Source: Acetofilamentum sp.
GTDB taxonomy: Bacteria; Bacteroidota; Bacteroidia; Bacteroidales; JAADGE01
Assembly: GCA_020720665.1 (NCBI GenBank)
Contig: DYOF01000018.1
Location: forward strand, 1 to 32,105
Length of the DNA: 32,105 nucleotides
Reading direction: 5' to 3'
Part shown: positions 1,489 to 14,808 of the stretch, one piece after another
How the letters are laid out: every line of letters starts with the position of its first letter
Position numbering within the stretch: the first letter of the stretch is position 1
Notes under the pieces: model-generated
The model's database searches: none
Seen by the model: only the letters and a program-made list of their open reading frames with translations
What the model was told of the DNA's origin: nothing
Translations under genes and position numbers: made by a program

Positions 1489-2541
1489 TTATTCATTCAT
1501 TTGTTTTTTCAGAGCTTCTTGATCCCTAATTCTTTTTTCAATAATGTAAATATAATCTCTTGCAGCTTTCAGGTGGTATTCAGAGTAAGCTCTTTGTGCC
1601 CAATCTAATGCCAAATCAAATTCACCTAAGACTTCTGATGCCAGTGCCATATTGTAGCAGGCATATCCTGCAATTTTGGTGTCTGTGTCATTGACATATC
1701 GTTTCCATATTTCGGCGGCGTCTTCCCATTGCTTTGCTTGTACTTTATATCGAGCTTCTTTAAAATCATCATTTGCCTTAGTAAAATATTTTCTTGAAAC
1801 CCAAATCCACATCGGTGAAATTCTGAATGCATATTGTTTTCCGGCAAAATAGCCGGTTTCTTCAATTGTAAATGAAGTTGTGGGTAGATTTCTTTCGGCT
1901 TCCCCGATTGAACGTCCTTTACCGTCCCAAGCCTTTCGGTCGGTAAAAACGCTTTGGTCAACAATTTTATGTTCTGCCGGATAATAAATACGCCAACCTG
2001 AATTTACGTCAATATCAAGCGATGCAATATGTTCGTTATACGAAACTTCTTTTCCGTTAACCGTTTCTTTTCTTTGTTGAACTCCAAAATGTTTTGATGT
2101 GTTTGAATCAAATGTTTCTAATAAAATTAATGCGTCGGCATTATAATTTTTACAAATTTGTTCTACTTTTTCCCATTCTAAGGGTTCTGCAAATTGGGCT
2201 GTTCCGGTGCCTCTGATATCATCTGTTCCGGAAGGTAATGTTACTTTGAATCTGGGTGAGTTTAACAGTCCGTCTGCAACTCCCGCAATACATTTTTGAG
2301 ATGCGTTTCGGTCTGCGAATAGTTCTTCACCTGTTACTAAGCCTTCTAATACGTTAACAATTCGGCTGCCGTCTCCTTTTTTAGGTAAACTTCTGTTAAC
2401 AACAGCCAGAGTATTAATTTTACTCGGTAAAAATATTTCTGCGGGTTTTAAAACACTAACCGAAATGGATTTTGTTTTACATGAACTTATTCCGATTACC
2501 AAAATAATTATAAATAAAGCTTGAAATTTAAGTTTTTTCAT
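1489..2541 (-). CDS. DUF6340-family lipoprotein with C-terminal TPR-like helices
   Basis: A 350-residue predicted lipoprotein. The N-terminus has a lysine-rich start, a hydrophobic core and a lipobox GISSC with the lipidated Cys at residue 21, so it should be membrane-anchored in the envelope. The opening of the mature part (PSKINTLAVVNRS, then a long beta/alpha region containing NADALILLETFDS) resembles the Bacteroidota family DUF6340, whose function is not known. The last ~100 residues (KANDDFKEARYKVQAKQWEDA and following) look like two to three TPR-type helical hairpins. The gene starts 10 bases after the stop of the propeller/PP2C gene, which suggests co-expression and possibly shared function with that envelope operon. 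Confidence 0.8.
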   Translation of the reverse strand: MKKLKFQALFIIILVIGISSCKTKSISVSVLKPAEIFLPSKINTLAVVNRSLPKKGDGSRIVNVLEGLVTGEELFADRNASQKCIAGVADGLLNSPRFKVTLPSGTDDIRGTGTAQFAEPLEWEKVEQICKNYNADALILLETFDSNTSKHFGVQQRKETVNGKEVSYNEHIASLDIDVNSGWRIYYPAEHKIVDQSVFTDRKAWDGKGRSIGEAERNLPTTSFTIEETGYFAGKQYAFRISPMWIWVSRKYFTKANDDFKEARYKVQAKQWEDAAEIWKRYVNDTDTKIAGYACYNMALASEVLGEFDLALDWAQRAYSEYHLKAARDYIYIIEKRIRDQEALKKQMNE

Positions 2542-2551
2542 CAGTTTGCTT

Positions 2552-5500
2552 TTAAAGTTTAAAACCGGTTACAATAATATCATCTGTTTGCCATGTGTCT
2601 TTCATCCAATCATTTATTGTTTTTTCAAGAATGTCGTGTTGTTCTTGCATGGGTTTATAATGAATATCCATAAGTAAGTCTTTCATTTGTTTAATCATAA
2701 ACTTACGGTTATGCGGTCCGCCGAATTGATCTTGATACCCGTCAGAGAACATATAAAACCATGCGGGTGATTCGTATTTAATTACATGGCTTTCAAATTC
2801 CTTTTTCTCTTGTTGGTAGCCTCCGATACCATGCCTGCTTGCTTTTATGTGTGTTAATTTTCCGTCGGTTATATAAATCAGAGGATTTTTTGCTCCGGCA
2901 TATTCAACGGTTTTATTTTCGATGTCAATTACGCATAGAGCCATATCCATTCCGTCTTGTGACAGACCTTCGGTTTCTTGTTTTAATGCCTGAACAACAT
3001 AATCGTTCATTTTTTCAAGAATAACATCTGCTTTTAAAATGTTATTATTTACAATGGTTGTTAATATTTCGCTGCCTATCATACTCATTAAAGCTCCGGG
3101 AACTCCGTGTCCGGTACAATCAACCGCAGTATAAACTATTTTATTTTCTTTTTTAGCATACCAGTAAAAATCGCCGCTGACAATATCTCGTGGTTTGAAC
3201 AGTAAGAAATTTTCGGTTAAATGTTTTGTAATGTTTTCTTTAACCGGCAACATTGCTTCTTGTATTCGCTTAGCATAGTTAATACTTGCAGTAATTGAGG
3301 TGTTTTTTTGAATAATTTCTTCATTTTGTGCCGACAAAGTGTCATTTTTTGCTTCAATTTCTTCTTTTTGTATTTGGATTTCTTTTGTTCGTTCCTCAAC
3401 AATACGTTTTAAATATTCTCTTTGTTTTTTTAGTCTGGCGATACTGAGTTGTATGATTCCGTATATAAAGATTAAAAACAGAATAAAATAACCGATGAAA
3501 GCACCTATTGTTCTGTACCATGGCGGTAAAATTTCAAATGTATATTCGGCAACTTTTGATTCTACATCATATAAGTTTTTTGCTTTTACAATCATTGTAT
3601 ATGTTCCGGGAGACAAGTTTGAGTATTCTTTATCGGTATTATATTTCCAATCTGACCACTCGGTATCATTTCCTTTTAAAATAAATTTATATTGAGTTTT
3701 CTCGGGTTCTTCATAAAAAACAGAAGAGAAGAAGAATCTTAAATCATTGAATTCAAATGGAATTCCGGGTATGTTTTCGGGATTTTGCACTAAGGAAATG
3801 TTTCCGTTATTATCTCGATATGCACCGCCGAATAAAACCGAATCATTTTTAACAAACTCTACTTTTCTGATCAGTGCTTGGAAAGGTTCTTCAAAACGTT
3901 TTTTTGATTGTATGTTATAGAGTACGAAACCTGTTTCTGTTCCGACAATCAGCTCGTTATCAGATATTTGATTTATTGTATTAATTCTGTTTTTAACTTT
4001 GTAAAATGGGGTTTTAATTACTTCATACTTACCGTTATTGAGTTTAAGCATACCTAATTCCCAATGTTTTTTGTTTTTAATTTTTGGGTCTTCTAATTCT
4101 TCCTTGAACCAAATATTTCCGTTTTTTGCTTGATGCAAACCGGTTATGCTGATTTTTCTTCCGAAAATTTTGTCAAATACGGGATCCTTCATAAACTTTT
4201 TGGAGGCTTTGTCGAAATAGTATATTCCGTCATCAGTTGTAAATTTTATTTCTTTATTTATTTCATAAACGTAATTGTTATATAAATTCGGCAAACCGTT
4301 TTTATCATTATATAAAATTTCTTCTGTAACAGAATCCAACTTATTATTTAATTTAATTCTGACTACTCCTTTACTTTTGTCTGATACCCAAAACGTATTT
4401 TGCTCATCTTCAACAATGTGCCTATAATCACCTTTAAAATTTTTAACGGCGTGTTTAAATTTCCATTTTCCTTCTGAAAATTCATAAACCATTAACCCGT
4501 GTCCGCCTGTTGTTAATATAAAGTTTTTATTTTGTTTTAAAACAATATAATTTTTAATACTTGTTTTGGGTCCGAGTAAGTTTGCTTTTTTCTCATTAAT
4601 TTCATATAATCCCAGTGATGTGGCACATAAAAGAGTATTGTTGGCTGTATCTAATTTCCAATTGAAAGCGCTTCCGTTTTCATTAGTAATTAATTCGAAT
4701 TTTTCCCCTTCTATTGAATTTTTACTTGAAAAATCTTTACAAAATGTTCCGGTAGAACTTCCTACAAATAACTTATTGTTAAACAAAACGGAGGTATATA
4801 CAGCTTCTGTTAAATTTGAGTTTTCTGAAAAAACGGTATATGGTATGTTTGGAAAAATCACCGATATTCCGTCATTTGTTCCGACCCAAATATTTTTATC
4901 TATATCAGAATATACATTATAAACCGTGTTGTTTTGTAATCCGTTTTCGGTTGAAAAGTGCTTTATTAAATCGAGGTTTTTATCGGTAATAACAAGCCCT
5001 TGACTATATAAACCACCTAAAAAATAATCATCTGTGTAATAATTTGATGTGTACATATTTTTTAGAAGCAGGTCTTTTTCAAATGACAAAATACCGTTGT
5101 CGGTATATAAGAAAACACTGTCTTGGTAAACATTAAAAAAAATATTTTTTTGTTGGGGAAACATTGCAACGACCCATTTGTCTGCAAATTTTTCTGTTCC
5201 GCTTAAAAAATGTAATTTTTGATTTTTATATTCAGAAATTCCTTTCCATTTTTCTTGGAAAAATAATCGGTTATTTACGGTATATGGTTTTACAAAAACA
5301 TTCTTTTCCGGATTTGCAACATCTATTGTTACAATCTTATCATCCTTATAGATATATAAAACTAAGGGAGATACGAATATCACTTCACCATCAGGACCGT
5401 TAACAACGAAACTGACTTGGGTAAATTCTTTTTTTGTATCCGGAATTTTGTCTTTTAAGGATTTGAACTTTAGGTTTCCTTCGGGTGTCGGTTCTAAATA

Positions 5501-5809
5501 TCCGAATTCACCTTGTGCTCCGACATATATTTTTCCGGTTTTATCTGTAGTAATAGAATAAATATTGGGTTCTCCGGGTAAAAATATTTTTTTCCAGGTT
5601 CGCCCGTCAAATTCTAAAATGTATGATTGGTTTGCAAAATACATAATGCCTCTTTTGTCTTGTATAATGGAAAATACTTGACTATTTCCGTCGTATTCTG
5701 CTCGGTTATAATTTTTTATATAAGGAATTCCTTTGCTTTCGACTTGGGAAAAAATAATTCCTGTATAAAACATTATAAATATTATACTTAGTAATTTTTT
5801 AATATCCAT
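2552..5809 (-). CDS. Propeller/Y_Y_Y membrane sensor with SpoIIE-type PP2C phosphatase output
   Basis: A predicted transmembrane receptor phosphatase of 1085 residues. The ATG at 5807-5809 is chosen because it opens directly on a signal peptide (KKLLSIIFIMFYTGIIFSQ); the longer frame adds 26 residues that would bury it and overlap the upstream gene. Residues ~25-660 hold two-component-regulator-type propeller repeats (for example NIWVGTNDGISVI, NTFWVSDKSKGVVRI). A Y_Y_Y domain follows (~670-760), then one transmembrane helix (~766-790), a coiled coil (~791-855) and a PP2C/SpoIIE phosphatase domain (~860-1085). The metal-binding acidic residues all appear intact: D880 (SGDFYW), D897 (AVDCTGHG), D1023 (SDGYQDQFGG) and D1076/D1077. 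Known relatives dephosphorylate serine/threonine partners such as anti-anti-sigma factors. No such partner lies in this window. Confidence 0.92.
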   Translation of the reverse strand: MDIKKLLSIIFIMFYTGIIFSQVESKGIPYIKNYNRAEYDGNSQVFSIIQDKRGIMYFANQSYILEFDGRTWKKIFLPGEPNIYSITTDKTGKIYVGAQGEFGYLEPTPEGNLKFKSLKDKIPDTKKEFTQVSFVVNGPDGEVIFVSPLVLYIYKDDKIVTIDVANPEKNVFVKPYTVNNRLFFQEKWKGISEYKNQKLHFLSGTEKFADKWVVAMFPQQKNIFFNVYQDSVFLYTDNGILSFEKDLLLKNMYTSNYYTDDYFLGGLYSQGLVITDKNLDLIKHFSTENGLQNNTVYNVYSDIDKNIWVGTNDGISVIFPNIPYTVFSENSNLTEAVYTSVLFNNKLFVGSSTGTFCKDFSSKNSIEGEKFELITNENGSAFNWKLDTANNTLLCATSLGLYEINEKKANLLGPKTSIKNYIVLKQNKNFILTTGGHGLMVYEFSEGKWKFKHAVKNFKGDYRHIVEDEQNTFWVSDKSKGVVRIKLNNKLDSVTEEILYNDKNGLPNLYNNYVYEINKEIKFTTDDGIYYFDKASKKFMKDPVFDKIFGRKISITGLHQAKNGNIWFKEELEDPKIKNKKHWELGMLKLNNGKYEVIKTPFYKVKNRINTINQISDNELIVGTETGFVLYNIQSKKRFEEPFQALIRKVEFVKNDSVLFGGAYRDNNGNISLVQNPENIPGIPFEFNDLRFFFSSVFYEEPEKTQYKFILKGNDTEWSDWKYNTDKEYSNLSPGTYTMIVKAKNLYDVESKVAEYTFEILPPWYRTIGAFIGYFILFLIFIYGIIQLSIARLKKQREYLKRIVEERTKEIQIQKEEIEAKNDTLSAQNEEIIQKNTSITASINYAKRIQEAMLPVKENITKHLTENFLLFKPRDIVSGDFYWYAKKENKIVYTAVDCTGHGVPGALMSMIGSEILTTIVNNNILKADVILEKMNDYVVQALKQETEGLSQDGMDMALCVIDIENKTVEYAGAKNPLIYITDGKLTHIKASRHGIGGYQQEKKEFESHVIKYESPAWFYMFSDGYQDQFGGPHNRKFMIKQMKDLLMDIHYKPMQEQHDILEKTINDWMKDTWQTDDIIVTGFKL

Positions 5810-5874
5810 TTTAAATCGTTTTAGTTTCGCTGACTTACTATTTTTAAATAAATTTATGTAAAGTTTCAAAAGCA

Positions 5875-8079
5875 TTAATCGTGCCAACCGTCAAATAAAA
5901 CATCTGTGTTTGCATTTATCAGAGCGTAAAATAATTCTTTATTTTTTAATTCCTCTTTGTTATAATTTTTAAATTCGGATTTAAAACCGGAAATATTAAT
6001 AAGATTGCTGTTAATTTTTACGGCTTTTGTTCCCCAAAATGAATTTCGATTTAACATCGGTTTAAATTTTTTTATTTCTCTGTTTGAAATAACAGTTACT
6101 AATACATTGGTTTCATTCTTTAATTTTCCTGCACCCGAATAAATTGTTTGGTTATCAACGTTTGTAAAGTGTGAAAAGTTGCTGAATATCAACAAATTAT
6201 CATTGTTTTTTATAATATCAAACGGTATTGCAGCCGCTTTATATTCTAACTCAAATGATTGTGTATCATCATCAATATTTAATTGGTAAAATATCTGACT
6301 ATCATCGCTTGAAATCAGAACATCCGGTTGTTCTCCGTTAAAAATAATGTTTGCTGTATTATTGATTTCATCAAAAAATAATTTGCGAGGTATTTTATGA
6401 ACCGGAATTTCTTTTTCAAAGAGCAACATACCAAGTTTATCATATTTTTTTAAACTGTTCGTGATTTTGTTGGCTTTAGTGGTTTCAATAAAAACAGCTC
6501 CTTCGGAAAATAAATCCGCAACCGTGTAATAGGTTTCGGTTGTATCAGAATTGATTGAATGTTTGATAAACTTAATTTGTGATGAATCTTTTAAAAATGC
6601 AATAAACCCCTTGCTTTTCGATTTTTCATCAGTTATATACCCCGAAACCCATTGCTGTTGATTTTCAAATTTACAAAAATCTAAGATATTATACACCAGA
6701 ACGGCTTGGTTTATTTTTGACGGTTTAAAAACTGCTTTTTGGGCTTTTTTGTTCAGATACAAGCTGTTAAATTCAAACAAAATTTGTTCAACTAATCTGT
6801 TTTTAAGTATTTCAAAGGCTTGTTTTTGGATTTCTTTATATGATAAGTCTTGACGCAAAACATAGTCTTTTATGCCCCCCATGCCATTATATGAATTCAA
6901 ATAAAACTCTTTATATTTAAAAATTTCTTCGGCTTTTAGGGCATTTAAAAATTCTTTTCGAAGACTGTCAGCATATATTTTCTTTTCAATTAACTGATTT
7001 ACATATGCTATGCTTTTTTCAATATTAACCCGTTCGGACAACTCAGGATTATTAATTGATTTTTTAGACCATTGCAAGAAATTTATTTGAGCTTCATTAA
7101 TCTTAAACAATAAAATTAATAAAGAATTATTATCATATTTTTCAATTTTATATACAAATTTTTTGTCTAAGTCAAATGTTTTTAAAGAGTCGGTATAGTT
7201 TTCTTCTGATATCGCTTCAATTAATTTTTTTAATTTTTTGTCTTCTTCCGATATTTCATTTCTGTTACTGTTAATTATTTGATTTTTTACATCCTTTACT
7301 TGTTGTACCCATTTTTTGTAATCCCATAAAGTGATATTATTATTCAGAAAATTTGAATTGGTTAAACCGTCTAAACGGTATGTTATAATAGGTTTAAGCT
7401 TGTAATTTTGATTATAGTTTTTTATAGGAAATATTTCGATTGCCTTTTTATATTCACTCAGGTTATAAATAACTGAGTCAAATTTAGTTTCCAGTGTATT
7501 GAGAGACTCTATAAACTCTTCGTCATCAGAAAGATAAATGTTTTTTATTTTAACATAATCGGTATTAACAGACATAAACAGATTAACACATTCGTTATAA
7601 AAATCGGAACTTTTATTAAAATAGTTAATTATACGTAAAATATTTGTTTCGTAGATTTCAATTGAATCTAATTGATTTTTAATATATAAATTGATATCTT
7701 CATTTGTTATTTTTTTTTCTTCGGTTGGTTTTATCACATTTTCATAATACATACGGTTTTTTTTCTTATCGTCTTCAAGTTTTAACATTGCTAAATTGAA
7801 GTATAGTTTAGTATTATAAATAAACTGTTTTGTGTATGAAAACTCTGTAAAAGGATTAAATTCATACGTCCACTCTTTGGCAATAATTGCCAACTGAAAA
7901 TATGTGTTTGAAAAATCGGGGTCTTGTTTTTGATATGCCATCAACAAGGTATATGCACGATCTTTGTCGCCCGATAAGACAATTGAGTAAACATCATCAT
8001 AATTAATCAGCGATGCCCCTGCTCTAAAAACAGAAAAAATATAAACGACAAGTATCAGTATAGCCCTTTTTGTAAACAT
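5875..8079 (-). CDS. Exported protein of unknown family, helical N-half and beta-rich C-half
   Basis: I do not recognise this 734-residue protein. Residues 1-22 are a signal peptide (KRAILILVVYIFSVF followed by a small-residue cut region), with no lipobox. Residues ~25-440 are mostly alpha-helical and charged, rich in Lys, Asn and Glu. The start (DRAYTLLMAYQKQDPDFSNTY) looks like a TPR-type hairpin. Residues ~450-734 are rich in short beta-strand segments, possibly a degenerate propeller. I see no catalytic motif. Its start lies 2 bases after the stop of the OmpA-family gene and it ends 65 bases before the propeller/PP2C start, so it sits in the middle of the operon. It is probably periplasmic or outer-membrane associated and may physically connect its two neighbours; that is inference from position only. 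Confidence 0.75.
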   Translation of the reverse strand: MFTKRAILILVVYIFSVFRAGASLINYDDVYSIVLSGDKDRAYTLLMAYQKQDPDFSNTYFQLAIIAKEWTYEFNPFTEFSYTKQFIYNTKLYFNLAMLKLEDDKKKNRMYYENVIKPTEEKKITNEDINLYIKNQLDSIEIYETNILRIINYFNKSSDFYNECVNLFMSVNTDYVKIKNIYLSDDEEFIESLNTLETKFDSVIYNLSEYKKAIEIFPIKNYNQNYKLKPIITYRLDGLTNSNFLNNNITLWDYKKWVQQVKDVKNQIINSNRNEISEEDKKLKKLIEAISEENYTDSLKTFDLDKKFVYKIEKYDNNSLLILLFKINEAQINFLQWSKKSINNPELSERVNIEKSIAYVNQLIEKKIYADSLRKEFLNALKAEEIFKYKEFYLNSYNGMGGIKDYVLRQDLSYKEIQKQAFEILKNRLVEQILFEFNSLYLNKKAQKAVFKPSKINQAVLVYNILDFCKFENQQQWVSGYITDEKSKSKGFIAFLKDSSQIKFIKHSINSDTTETYYTVADLFSEGAVFIETTKANKITNSLKKYDKLGMLLFEKEIPVHKIPRKLFFDEINNTANIIFNGEQPDVLISSDDSQIFYQLNIDDDTQSFELEYKAAAIPFDIIKNNDNLLIFSNFSHFTNVDNQTIYSGAGKLKNETNVLVTVISNREIKKFKPMLNRNSFWGTKAVKINSNLINISGFKSEFKNYNKEELKNKELFYALINANTDVLFDGWHD

Positions 8080-8081
8080 AA

Positions 8082-10121
8082 TTAATTTTTAATTTCAATA
8101 ACTTCTAATTCTACTCTTCTGTTTTTAGCTCTATTTTCATCAGTATCAATCGGAAAATATGCCGGTTTTGATTTCCCATAACCTTTTGAAATGATTTGTT
8201 CTTTTTTTATGTTGTTCTCTGTTAAATATTTGAATACAGTTGTTGCTCTTTTTTCAGAAAGTTTTAAATTATATATACTTGAACCGATATCATCAGTATG
8301 TGCAGAAACCTCAATTTTAATGTTCGGATTTGCTTCTAACAGTTTTACTACTCTGTTTAATTCTTCAAACGAATTCTTATTTAAATCGGCTGAATTGGTT
8401 TCAAAATTAATGTCATTTAATTCAATTTTGGTTGCTTTTTTCAAGGGTTCCAAATCGACTTTCAGGTTATGCTCTGCTTGGTCATCCATTAAGTCAACCG
8501 TAACATTATAAAATGCGTAACCTTTTGGACTTACATTAACTTCGTAGCGTGTACCGTCTCTTAATTTTATTTTTAATTTGCCGTCATTATCGGTTTTTAC
8601 TTTTTTAATGATTTTCTCATTTGTTGATAAGTTAGTTATTTCAATATACGTTTCAACGCCTTCACCTGTTTCACTGTCAGAAAGTTGTATTTCATAATCA
8701 ATTTTATTGATTTGTAATTCTATATCCCTTTCAAATTCAGAAAATTGAACGACCCCTCTTAAATCTAAATTAAAACTGTTTGGTTCAAAATGTTTTTTTT
8801 CAGCTTCAATTTTAAATTCGTTTCCAATCGGCAGAGTAATGAAATACCTCCCTGTTGCATTTTTTTTCACAGGCACATTTAACCTTTGGTTATTTTGTGT
8901 ATTCAGAATCTTTATTTCAGACTCTAAGGGCTCATATATTTCTGAATCATAAACATTTAACACTAAATCGACTTCTGAATAAAGGTTAATGTTTTTTTGT
9001 TCTTCCTTAAAATTAATAATGTTGCCGGTATTATAGAAGAAAAAATAATGAGAGTAATTTTCATGATAAACATCAATTATAAATTTATTTCCTCGCGGTA
9101 AAAAGAAATTGTATTCGCCGGTTACCGAATTTGTATTCACCGAAAATTGAACAATTGAGGTATTCGGATCAACAATATCAATTGTTGCCGAAAGCGGTTT
9201 TTCTGTTTTTAAATCACTCACAATACCATGAAAATGAACTGTAGCTTCCGGTCGAGTTTCAAATTTCATTTCTGATGAAACCAACATTACAGATTGGTTT
9301 TTTATTTTATTGTTTCCTGATAAATAATAAATTCGATGTCCGTTTTGAGGTATGCTCGGATACGATTCCTCAAACTCTGAATTAATTGTATCAACCGGAA
9401 TCGGCGACATCCATGCGTTTTTAGTTATCTTCTTTGCAAAATAAATATCCGATCCGTTTTCGCCCTCATTTCTTACAGAAACAAAATATAAAGTTTTTCC
9501 GTCCGGAGCTAATCTCGGGCATTTATCACAACCGGCATTAACCGGTTCCGGCAGAATTTTCGGTTTTGACCACTCGCCATTTACAAGTTCTGAAACAAGT
9601 ATCGCAAAACATTCTATTTTTTTAAAATTATCGTTTTCAATTCTTCGGGCAAAATACAACTGTTTTCCGTTTGGTGCTATGAAAGGATCCGTTTCATCTT
9701 CACCGGTATTTATTTGCTCGTTTAGTTTTACGGGTGCCGACCAATTGTTGCCTTCTTTTTCAATAAAATAAATATCTGAATTTGTGTTCTTCCCTCCCGG
9801 CTTTAAAGAAAGGTAAATTTTATCGGCATTTTGATTGTAAGCAGGTGCATCTGCCGTAAAAATCAGAGAAGTATCTGTTTTAATATGGATTTTTTGGGGT
9901 CGAGACCATGTGTTATCTATATTTAATTCACATTCTGCCAAATATCTTTCGGTTGTAGTTTCTCCTATAAAAACAATTTTTTTGCCGTCGTAACTGATGT
10001 ATGGGGCAATAATTTTTGTTTCAATATCATTAACCGGTAACAACAGCTCCATTTTATTTTGAGAGTAAGCAAACAAAATAAAAAACTGTAAAAATAATTG
10101 TATAAAACCTATCTTTTTCAC
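8082..10121 (-). CDS. OmpA-family cell-wall-binding protein with PD40 propeller and three CRD-like repeats
   Basis: A 679-residue exported protein, starting at GTG (10119-10121), with a signal peptide ending near FAYSQN. Residues ~22-290 contain WD40-like PD40 repeats (ISYDGKKIVF, PFIAPNGKQLYFARR, PRLAPDGKTLYFVS, PSIPQNGHRIYYLSG). Residues ~296-565 hold three tandem carboxypeptidase-regulatory-like repeats of about 90 residues, each with a G-x-[YL]-x-[FI]-x-L-x-x-G pattern (TGEYNFFLPRG, TGRYFITLPIG, DGKLKIKLRDG). Residues 571-679 are an OmpA C-terminal domain with INFETNSADL, the HTDDIG loop, LSEKRA and NRRVE, which bind peptidoglycan in known relatives. The order resembles the T9SS-associated protein PorE but lacks its TPR region and lipobox. 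It is the first gene of the minus-strand run and has a good promoter. Confidence 0.9.
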   Translation of the reverse strand: MKKIGFIQLFLQFFILFAYSQNKMELLLPVNDIETKIIAPYISYDGKKIVFIGETTTERYLAECELNIDNTWSRPQKIHIKTDTSLIFTADAPAYNQNADKIYLSLKPGGKNTNSDIYFIEKEGNNWSAPVKLNEQINTGEDETDPFIAPNGKQLYFARRIENDNFKKIECFAILVSELVNGEWSKPKILPEPVNAGCDKCPRLAPDGKTLYFVSVRNEGENGSDIYFAKKITKNAWMSPIPVDTINSEFEESYPSIPQNGHRIYYLSGNNKIKNQSVMLVSSEMKFETRPEATVHFHGIVSDLKTEKPLSATIDIVDPNTSIVQFSVNTNSVTGEYNFFLPRGNKFIIDVYHENYSHYFFFYNTGNIINFKEEQKNINLYSEVDLVLNVYDSEIYEPLESEIKILNTQNNQRLNVPVKKNATGRYFITLPIGNEFKIEAEKKHFEPNSFNLDLRGVVQFSEFERDIELQINKIDYEIQLSDSETGEGVETYIEITNLSTNEKIIKKVKTDNDGKLKIKLRDGTRYEVNVSPKGYAFYNVTVDLMDDQAEHNLKVDLEPLKKATKIELNDINFETNSADLNKNSFEELNRVVKLLEANPNIKIEVSAHTDDIGSSIYNLKLSEKRATTVFKYLTENNIKKEQIISKGYGKSKPAYFPIDTDENRAKNRRVELEVIEIKN

Positions 10122-10151: not shown

Positions 10152-10183
10152 CAAATATATTAAAGTTCTCATTATTTTTCACA
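10152..10183 (-). promoter_or_regulatory. Bacteroidota-type promoter for the OmpA/PP2C operon
   Basis: On the minus strand TATATTTG (10152-10159) matches the -7 consensus TAnnTTTG exactly. TGTG (10180-10183), one base off the -33 TTTG, lies upstream with a 20-base spacer. Transcription would start near 10145, giving a leader of about 25 bases before the GTG start at 10121. No direct evidence of activity is available. Confidence 0.6.
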
Positions 10184-12758: not shown

Positions 12759-12858
12759 TTAAAATAATTTATAAAAACAACAATAATAATAATTTTTATT
12801 TTTTTAAAATATGAGAACTCAAACCATTTATGATAACAGGCTAAAAATATTCCGAGCG

Positions 12859-14808
12859 ATGAAAATCAATTGTTTTATTTTATTTATGATATTCTCGACA
12901 ACACTAACAAATGCTCAACTAAAAGAGCAACACAATTGTTCGGAAAGTAAAATTGCACAATATAAAACAATCTTAAATGCAGATGAAACTAAATATAAAA
13001 CAACGTCAGGTTTTAATTACGATGTTAAATACTACAAATTAGAGTTTTTATTTACTGATATTAATTCGGCTTATATTCAAGGCAAAATTACAACACATTT
13101 TCAAGCAAAATCGAACAATTTTACACAAATACGTTTTGATTTAGCAAATAATTTGCTTGTTGATTCTGTTATTTTTCATCAAAATAAAATGATGAATTAT
13201 TCTTTATTAAATGATGAATTAACCGTTGATTTATCCGAAACGATTCCTTTTGAATCTTTTGATTCTATTTCCGTTTTTTATCAAGGAGTTCCTGATGCCG
13301 GGGGGTTTGGCTCTTTTGAACAAACAACACATAACGGAACACCTATTATTTGGACACTTTCTGAACCCTATGGTGCAAGAGATTGGTGGCCCTGTAAACA
13401 AAGTTTAAACGACAAAGCTGATTCTATTGACATATACATAACAAATCCTGAAAATTATAAAGCTGCAAGCAACGGTTTGTTAATCTCTGAAAGCATCAAT
13501 AACGGCTTTAAAACAGCTCACTGGAAGCACCGACACCCGATAACGGCTTATTTAATTGCCGTTGCTGTTACAAACTATGTTGAATATTCTGATTTTGTAA
13601 ACTTAACAACCGGAGAAAATGTAGAAGTTCTAAACTACGTATTTCCTGAGAACTTATCTTCTGCCATGACAAGCACGCCTAACGTATTAGATGTCATTCA
13701 ATTGTACAGCAATTTGTTTATCCCCTACCCTTATCATAATGAGAAATACGGTCATGCTCAATTTGGTTGGGGAGGCGGAATGGAACATCAAACGATGAGC
13801 TTTATGGGCGGTTTTTCCCACGGGCTAATGGCTCATGAATTAGCCCATCAATGGTTCGGAGATTATGTTACTTGCGGCTCTTGGGAAGACATTTGGTTAA
13901 ACGAAGGCTTTGCAACATATTTAGACGGGCTGACCCATGAACACAATCTTCATGACGACGGGGTCAGTTTTAACCAATGGAAGGCAGACAGAATTAACCA
14001 CATCACATCCTATTCGTACGGGTCTGTTTTTGTTGATGATACTACAAGCGTTTCTCGTATTTTCAGTAGCCGATTATCTTATTCCAAAGGGGCAATGGTA
14101 TTGCACATGATTAGAAAAAAAATAGGCGATGATAACTTTTTCCAAGCACTCAGAAATTATTTAAGCGACCCTGAAATTGCCGAAGGATACGCTCACACAT
14201 CTGATTTGCAAGCCCATTTTGAAGCTGCTTACGGCTATTCTTTGCAAGAATTTATCAATGATTGGTTTTACGGTCAAGGGTATCCGATATACAATATTTA
14301 TTATGGACAGTCAGCATCCAAAGATGTTTCGGTAACTATAAATCAAACACAATCCCACGCTTCTGTTGATTTTTTTGAAATGAATGTGCCAATTAAATTT
14401 TACGGTATGGATAAAGATACAACTATTATACTAAACAATACCACAAATCAGCAAGTGTTTTCGTTTCCGCTTAATTTTGATATAATTTCGGCTACTTTCG
14501 ACCCTGACAAAGATATTGTTACAAAAGGTACAAGCATTTTAAATATTGATACGTTTGATTTTAAACATAAGTTTTTTATCAGCCCAAACCCCTCTCATAA
14601 TAGTATTACAGTCAGCTTTTTAGAGAAAATTATTCCGGAAGAAGTGATCATCCGAGATATTTCAGGAAAACAATTAAAGTATTTCGGTGCCGAAAAGCAA
14701 TCAGCCCATCGGTTTGAATATGATATTTCTGACCTTGAAAACGGCATGTATTTTATTTCTTTTGAGCAAGAAGGAAAAACAGTTTCAAAAAAGTTCGTTA
14801 AAAATTAA
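12859..14808 (+). CDS. M1-family zinc aminopeptidase with type IX secretion C-terminal sorting domain
   Basis: A 649-residue secreted metallopeptidase. The ATG at 12859 is preferred over an upstream one at 12811 because it begins the signal peptide (MKINCFILFMIFSTTLTNAQ). Residues ~50-240 form the N-terminal beta domain of M1 enzymes. The exopeptidase motif reads GGGMEH, and the zinc site is His326-Glu327-x-x-His330 with Glu349 (NEGFATY), the usual HExxH-x18-E. Helical segments follow to ~490. The last ~80 residues are a Por/type A T9SS sorting domain, opening with FFISPNP, containing GMYFISF and ending in a lysine-rich tail. The protein should be exported by Sec, then passed through the type IX system to the surface or medium, where it would trim N-terminal residues from peptides. 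The neighbouring plus-strand gene, ribE, starts 47 bases downstream. Confidence 0.93.
   Translation: MKINCFILFMIFSTTLTNAQLKEQHNCSESKIAQYKTILNADETKYKTTSGFNYDVKYYKLEFLFTDINSAYIQGKITTHFQAKSNNFTQIRFDLANNLLVDSVIFHQNKMMNYSLLNDELTVDLSETIPFESFDSISVFYQGVPDAGGFGSFEQTTHNGTPIIWTLSEPYGARDWWPCKQSLNDKADSIDIYITNPENYKAASNGLLISESINNGFKTAHWKHRHPITAYLIAVAVTNYVEYSDFVNLTTGENVEVLNYVFPENLSSAMTSTPNVLDVIQLYSNLFIPYPYHNEKYGHAQFGWGGGMEHQTMSFMGGFSHGLMAHELAHQWFGDYVTCGSWEDIWLNEGFATYLDGLTHEHNLHDDGVSFNQWKADRINHITSYSYGSVFVDDTTSVSRIFSSRLSYSKGAMVLHMIRKKIGDDNFFQALRNYLSDPEIAEGYAHTSDLQAHFEAAYGYSLQEFINDWFYGQGYPIYNIYYGQSASKDVSVTINQTQSHASVDFFEMNVPIKFYGMDKDTTIILNNTTNQQVFSFPLNFDIISATFDPDKDIVTKGTSILNIDTFDFKHKFFISPNPSHNSITVSFLEKIIPEEVIIRDISGKQLKYFGAEKQSAHRFEYDISDLENGMYFISFEQEGKTVSKKFVKN

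Follow-up and report, generated by a model that had tools for sequence, protein, structure and literature searches.

Three genes on the minus strand of the window (the whole 32,105-nucleotide stretch of DNA analysed here) raise the question of whether a putative peptidoglycan-binding protein, an exported protein of an undescribed family and a receptor phosphatase act as one unit, and whether the first two control the third. The first gene of the trio encodes an OmpA/PD40 protein (8082-10121; GTG start, 679 aa). It is followed after 2 nt by the gene for the undescribed exported protein, termed UNK (5875-8079; 734 aa), and after a further 65 nt by the gene for the transmembrane receptor phosphatase (2552-5809; 1,085 aa from the ATG). 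This ATG was chosen as the receptor start and fits the signal peptide; a start at the in-frame TTG (5887) would make the gene overlap UNK. The head-to-tail packing and the gaps are as the earlier note had described them, and its span of 2552-10121 comprises the three genes without the lipoprotein gene that follows. The same note had placed the trio behind one promoter, a claim that fared less well: the candidate Bacteroidetes -7 element (TATATTTG, minus strand, 10152-10159), about 30 nt upstream of the GTG, is weak evidence because the motif occurs in the window at chance frequency (59 found, 56 expected), and promoter and terminator scans gave chance-level or weak signals only. The lipoprotein gene (Pfam DUF6340; 1489-2541, minus strand) does lie 10 nt downstream of the receptor gene, as claimed, and is probably cotranscribed with the trio at this locus; genes for a TlpA-like thioredoxin and then a MazG-like protein lie beyond it. 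Its membership of the unit did not survive comparison, as within the genus it is present in some members only, and outside the genus it never adjoins the trio. DUF6340 is outside the unit and belongs to the local neighbourhood of the genus.

Gene order in relatives speaks most directly to the question of a unit. The flanks of UNK loci were searched with tblastn and profile HMMs, and in 46 of the 48 loci whose flanks were long enough, from about 20 families, an OmpA/PD40 gene immediately precedes UNK, mostly with gaps of less than 70 nt or overlaps. The exceptions are L061 (genome G019), in which a DUF3843 gene occupies the OmpA position, and L119 (G077), in which the OmpA gene is on another contig than UNK. 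Downstream of UNK, 28 loci in seven families (f1, f17, f37, f45, f56, f63 and f67) have a PP2C receptor gene in the same orientation, mostly within 160 nt or overlapping; every f1 locus with downstream flank has it. Few other neighbours of the trio are kept outside the genus: the TlpA-like and MazG-like genes are retained in a second f1 genus, and genes for a guanylate kinase and a DUF6702 protein are common to f45 and f67. The earlier note had made its reading depend on conserved linkage among Bacteroidota relatives, and the trio is indeed kept across large divergence. Because the genes stay together across several Bacteroidales families, the OmpA/PD40 protein, UNK and the receptor very probably form one functional unit of the Bacteroidales envelope. 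The OmpA-UNK pair is also common without an adjacent PP2C (in f11, f25, f30, f36, f42, f57 and most of f56) and so can do without a neighbouring receptor gene. Hence, the pair is the conserved, older core, and only some families have gained or retained the PP2C alongside it. Another neighbour of the pair was observed in two families: a TPR-CHAT gene is directly upstream of it in f19 (L066:3417-7700, and a 1,419-aa gene in L124) and divergent from it in f25 (L122:13618-17403 and L123:13081-16857), with domains checked in L066, L122 and L123 and L124 assigned by size and position only.

Two further comparisons bear on how closely the three genes are associated. At a threshold of E<=1e-60, an OmpA orthologue was present in all 11 UNK-positive genomes and in 0 of 31 UNK-negative genomes (three of these in the same family) among the 42 genomes compared (Fisher p 2e-10, phylogeny ignored). 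Given this perfect co-occurrence, the OmpA/PD40 and UNK genes seem to be gained or lost as a pair. In a tree of 52 full-length receptors (quick search, no bootstrap), the linked PP2Cs are found within one clade of 34 members, 27 linked and 7 unlinked, with an SH-aLRT of 99. Five of the unlinked receptors belong to genomes of families f56 and f58 that retain UNK at another site. The other two are from genomes without UNK and the OmpA orthologue (G001, in which the contig ends at the PP2C, and G016, in which other genes are upstream of the PP2C). PP2Cs convergent to the pair in f19 (L066 and L124) or about 4 kb from it in f39 (L065) belong to other lineages in the tree; they were not counted as linkage and hence provide no evidence for the same association.

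It is also possible that the three proteins are co-expressed from an envelope operon but do not touch one another, the pair having a structural or trafficking role and the PP2C sensing a related condition. The existence of the pair in families without an adjacent PP2C would suit such an arrangement, as would its presence in G061, a genome without SiaC (the predicted substrate discussed below), and an HTCS-like sensor could bind a small ligand alone. However, a specific receptor clade stays with the pair across seven families while other neighbours are lost, and we regard an operon without contact as unlikely.

The undescribed part of the unit is UNK. No family in Pfam or NCBIfam matched it above cut-off, and no PDB chain matched it by sequence. 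An AlphaFold2 model (mean pLDDT 82.5, pTM 0.64) indicates a signal peptide, an all-helical domain at about 27-433 and a C-terminal beta-propeller-like domain at about 449-734; a Foldseek search of PDB folds gave weak propeller matches only (best E 2e-7, TM-score about 0.3). UNK is thus predicted to be soluble and periplasmic and to combine a helical domain with a propeller. Conservation is highest in the N-terminal helices (23-120) and a motif near 221-260 and lowest in the propeller. The gene is single copy in its own genome. Of 60 relatives, 24 carry it, as do about 37 of the 393 Bacteroidales genomes sampled, the latter count being taken from 43 matches listed with the weakest, short ones left out. 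A scan of named genomes with alignment A2 gave 15 loci; alignment A1 was too diverse for such a scan. A common origin of the UNK and OmpA/PD40 propellers was unsupported (hhalign probability 0.6%), as was one of UNK and the receptor (0.4%), and an apparent OmpA-UNK fusion in L068 (a 1,319-aa frame) proved to be an artefact, with the OmpA stop codon in place and UNK in another frame. Relatives of the helical part only, of about 593-645 aa, were detected outside the order and within the same class, in family f128 (L186:8874-10811, L187:9188-10972 and L188:7989-9770). No OmpA or PP2C gene was found near these three, and their neighbours (Sir2, topoisomerase and pantothenate kinase genes) give no functional clue.

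The OmpA/PD40 protein is assembled from recognisable parts. Pfam matches to OmpA, PD40 and CarboxypepD_reg were obtained, and the order is a signal peptide, a PD40 propeller, a CarboxypepD_reg-type beta-sandwich region and a C-terminal OmpA domain. OmpA domains contact peptidoglycan through an Asp and an Arg. The HTD motif (D610) and R625, which we take to be the corresponding peptidoglycan-binding positions, are invariant in the 11 and 16 sequences compared, and binding of peptidoglycan by this protein can be predicted from these residues. In two loci, the gene was observed in two frames (L055:10521-12558, 416 and 251 aa; L065:11149-15423, 796 and 616 aa), indicating either a gene split or a sequencing error.

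A similar domain order, with a PD40 propeller, a carboxypeptidase-regulatory-like domain and a C-terminal OmpA domain, occurs in PorE, whose OmpA domain binds peptidoglycan (PMC7192894), and in CHU_0125. This likeness raises the possibility that OmpA/PD40 and UNK are PorE-like accessory parts of type IX secretion or a related machine, which the PP2C would tune. The organism does have cargo of this kind: positions 12811-14808 of the window encode a peptidase of the M1 family that carries a C-terminal sorting domain for type IX secretion, so that the source organism probably has such a system. However, unlike PorE and CHU_0125, the OmpA/PD40 protein has no Pfam TPR match and is obligately paired with UNK; it is below the cut-offs of both family models (169.5 bits against 600 for PorE and 179.6 against 620 for CHU_0125), and no type IX secretion genes were recognised among the neighbours checked. 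We therefore consider a role in type IX secretion to be quite improbable.

The third protein is a transmembrane PP2C with its own propellers, as the earlier note had proposed. Pfam identifies Reg_prop, Y_Y_Y and SpoIIE (PP2C) domains, and the layout comprises a signal peptide, an HTCS-type double Reg_prop propeller, Y_Y_Y at about 699-760, a transmembrane helix at about 768-797, a coiled coil and SpoIIE/PP2C at about 835-1085. The arrangement of two Reg_prop propellers, Y_Y_Y and one transmembrane helix is that of the Bacteroides HTCS receptors BT4663, BT3049 and BT4673, whereas the output is SpoIIE/PP2C, without histidine kinase, receiver/response regulator or HTH domains. The predicted sensor (in a receptor model of mean pLDDT 71.8, parts of which are of low confidence) matches BT4663 over 801 columns (E 8e-32, TM-score 0.72 by target length). 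As BT4663 is a heparin sensor, the match would be consistent with the receptor being an autonomous glycan or muropeptide sensor, with the role of OmpA/PD40 and UNK confined to capturing or processing its ligand close to peptidoglycan. The identity to BT4663 is about 15%, however, and says nothing about the ligand, and the neighbours checked include no recognisable genes for carbohydrate enzymes or SusC/SusD. It is improbable that the receptor is an autonomous sensor of this kind.

The phosphatase domain gives some indication of the cytosolic output. Its metal-binding motifs are intact (D880, D897, D955, D1023, D1027 and D1077 are conserved among orthologues), and it is closest to Pseudomonas SiaA (PDB 6k4e; phmmer E 3.4e-34). 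Against the SiaA family model NF038263 of NCBIfam, the receptor scored 186.7 bits with a cut-off of 700, over residues 798-1084 only. Studies of P. aeruginosa have shown that SiaC is phosphorylated by SiaB and dephosphorylated by SiaA, and that it switches on the diguanylate cyclase SiaD (PMC7647112, PMC8457831). As in that system, the receptor is transmembrane, its cytosolic PP2C is of the SiaA subfamily with conserved metal-binding residues, and the SiaB and SiaC families are abundant in the source genome, which has 14 SiaC domains and 11 SiaB-type DUF6272 domains. There are also differences. The sensor is an HTCS-type double propeller while SiaA has a HAMP-containing membrane part; the F612 loop of SiaA, a modelled contact to SiaC, is not conserved in the receptor; and no SiaB, SiaC or SiaD gene is adjacent, the neighbours being OmpA/PD40, UNK, DUF6340, TlpA-like and MazG-like genes. 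No GGDEF domain was found in the source genome, so the last step must differ from that of the P. aeruginosa pathway. The earlier note had suggested STAS or anti-sigma partners. Only two STAS matches were found in the genome, both on other contigs; one of them lies in a frame of 549 aa, possibly a transporter. Based on these counts of SiaC, SiaB, STAS and GGDEF domains, the output is likely to be a Sia-type partner switch rather than one based on STAS/anti-sigma or c-di-GMP, and we predict that SiaC is the substrate of the receptor PP2C. An association of SiaC with UNK is suggestive at the family level (16 of 17 UNK-positive families have SiaC as compared with 7 of 27 UNK-negative families), although this comparison is confounded by phylogeny. 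Together with about 20 PP2Cs, the SiaC and SiaB domains of the source genome (G000) make up a large Sia-type network, with examples at C183:8704-10887 (L177), C214:13307-14662 (L173) and C199:13652-15407 (L172), and this network contains a SiaB-SiaB-SiaC-SiaC-SiaC array. Elsewhere in this genome, a TPR-PD40 gene lies end to end with another propeller-PP2C gene (L173:13726-19055), a possible analogous pairing.

How might the three proteins work together? In the scheme that we favour, OmpA/PD40 would be held to peptidoglycan through its C-terminal OmpA domain and would pair with UNK in the periplasm. This pair, directly or via a presented ligand, may set the state of the double-propeller sensor of the receptor, and the Y_Y_Y domain, transmembrane helix and coiled coil would relay the change to the cytosolic PP2C. 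The PP2C would then dephosphorylate a SiaC-type partner-switch protein that is phosphorylated by a SiaB-type kinase. We infer from domain content and gene order the contact among the three periplasmic parts, the direction of signalling and the final output. For physical control of the receptor by OmpA/PD40 and UNK, the evidence seems to us evenly balanced, and we give about the same even chance to the scheme as a whole, from the setting of the sensor by the pair to the action of the PP2C on a SiaC-type partner. Counted against the scheme are the pairs without an adjacent PP2C, the PP2Cs of G001 and G016 without the pair, the DUF3843 gene of L061, the non-conserved F612 loop, the lack of adjacent SiaB and SiaC genes and the presence of about 20 other PP2Cs in the genome. 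A more specific proposal, that OmpA/PD40 and UNK are a co-sensor that physically gates the receptor and couples cell-wall state to a c-di-GMP-independent Sia-type switch, is possible but somewhat doubtful.

In summary, the trio is a new variant of known parts combined with one undescribed protein family. The literature searched contained nothing on DUF6340, on operons with PD40 or on propeller PP2Cs, and for many receptor PP2Cs of the Bacteroidota it gave no description of signals, partners or outputs. In the trio, gene order links a single receptor clade to a protein of peptidoglycan-binding type and to a family that no library covers. The trio hence suggests a concrete connection, open to test, from the cell wall to serine/threonine phosphatase signalling, and it points to a possible role for UNK. 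Gating of the receptor by a co-sensor, if true, would represent a novel way in which Bacteroidales sense their envelope.
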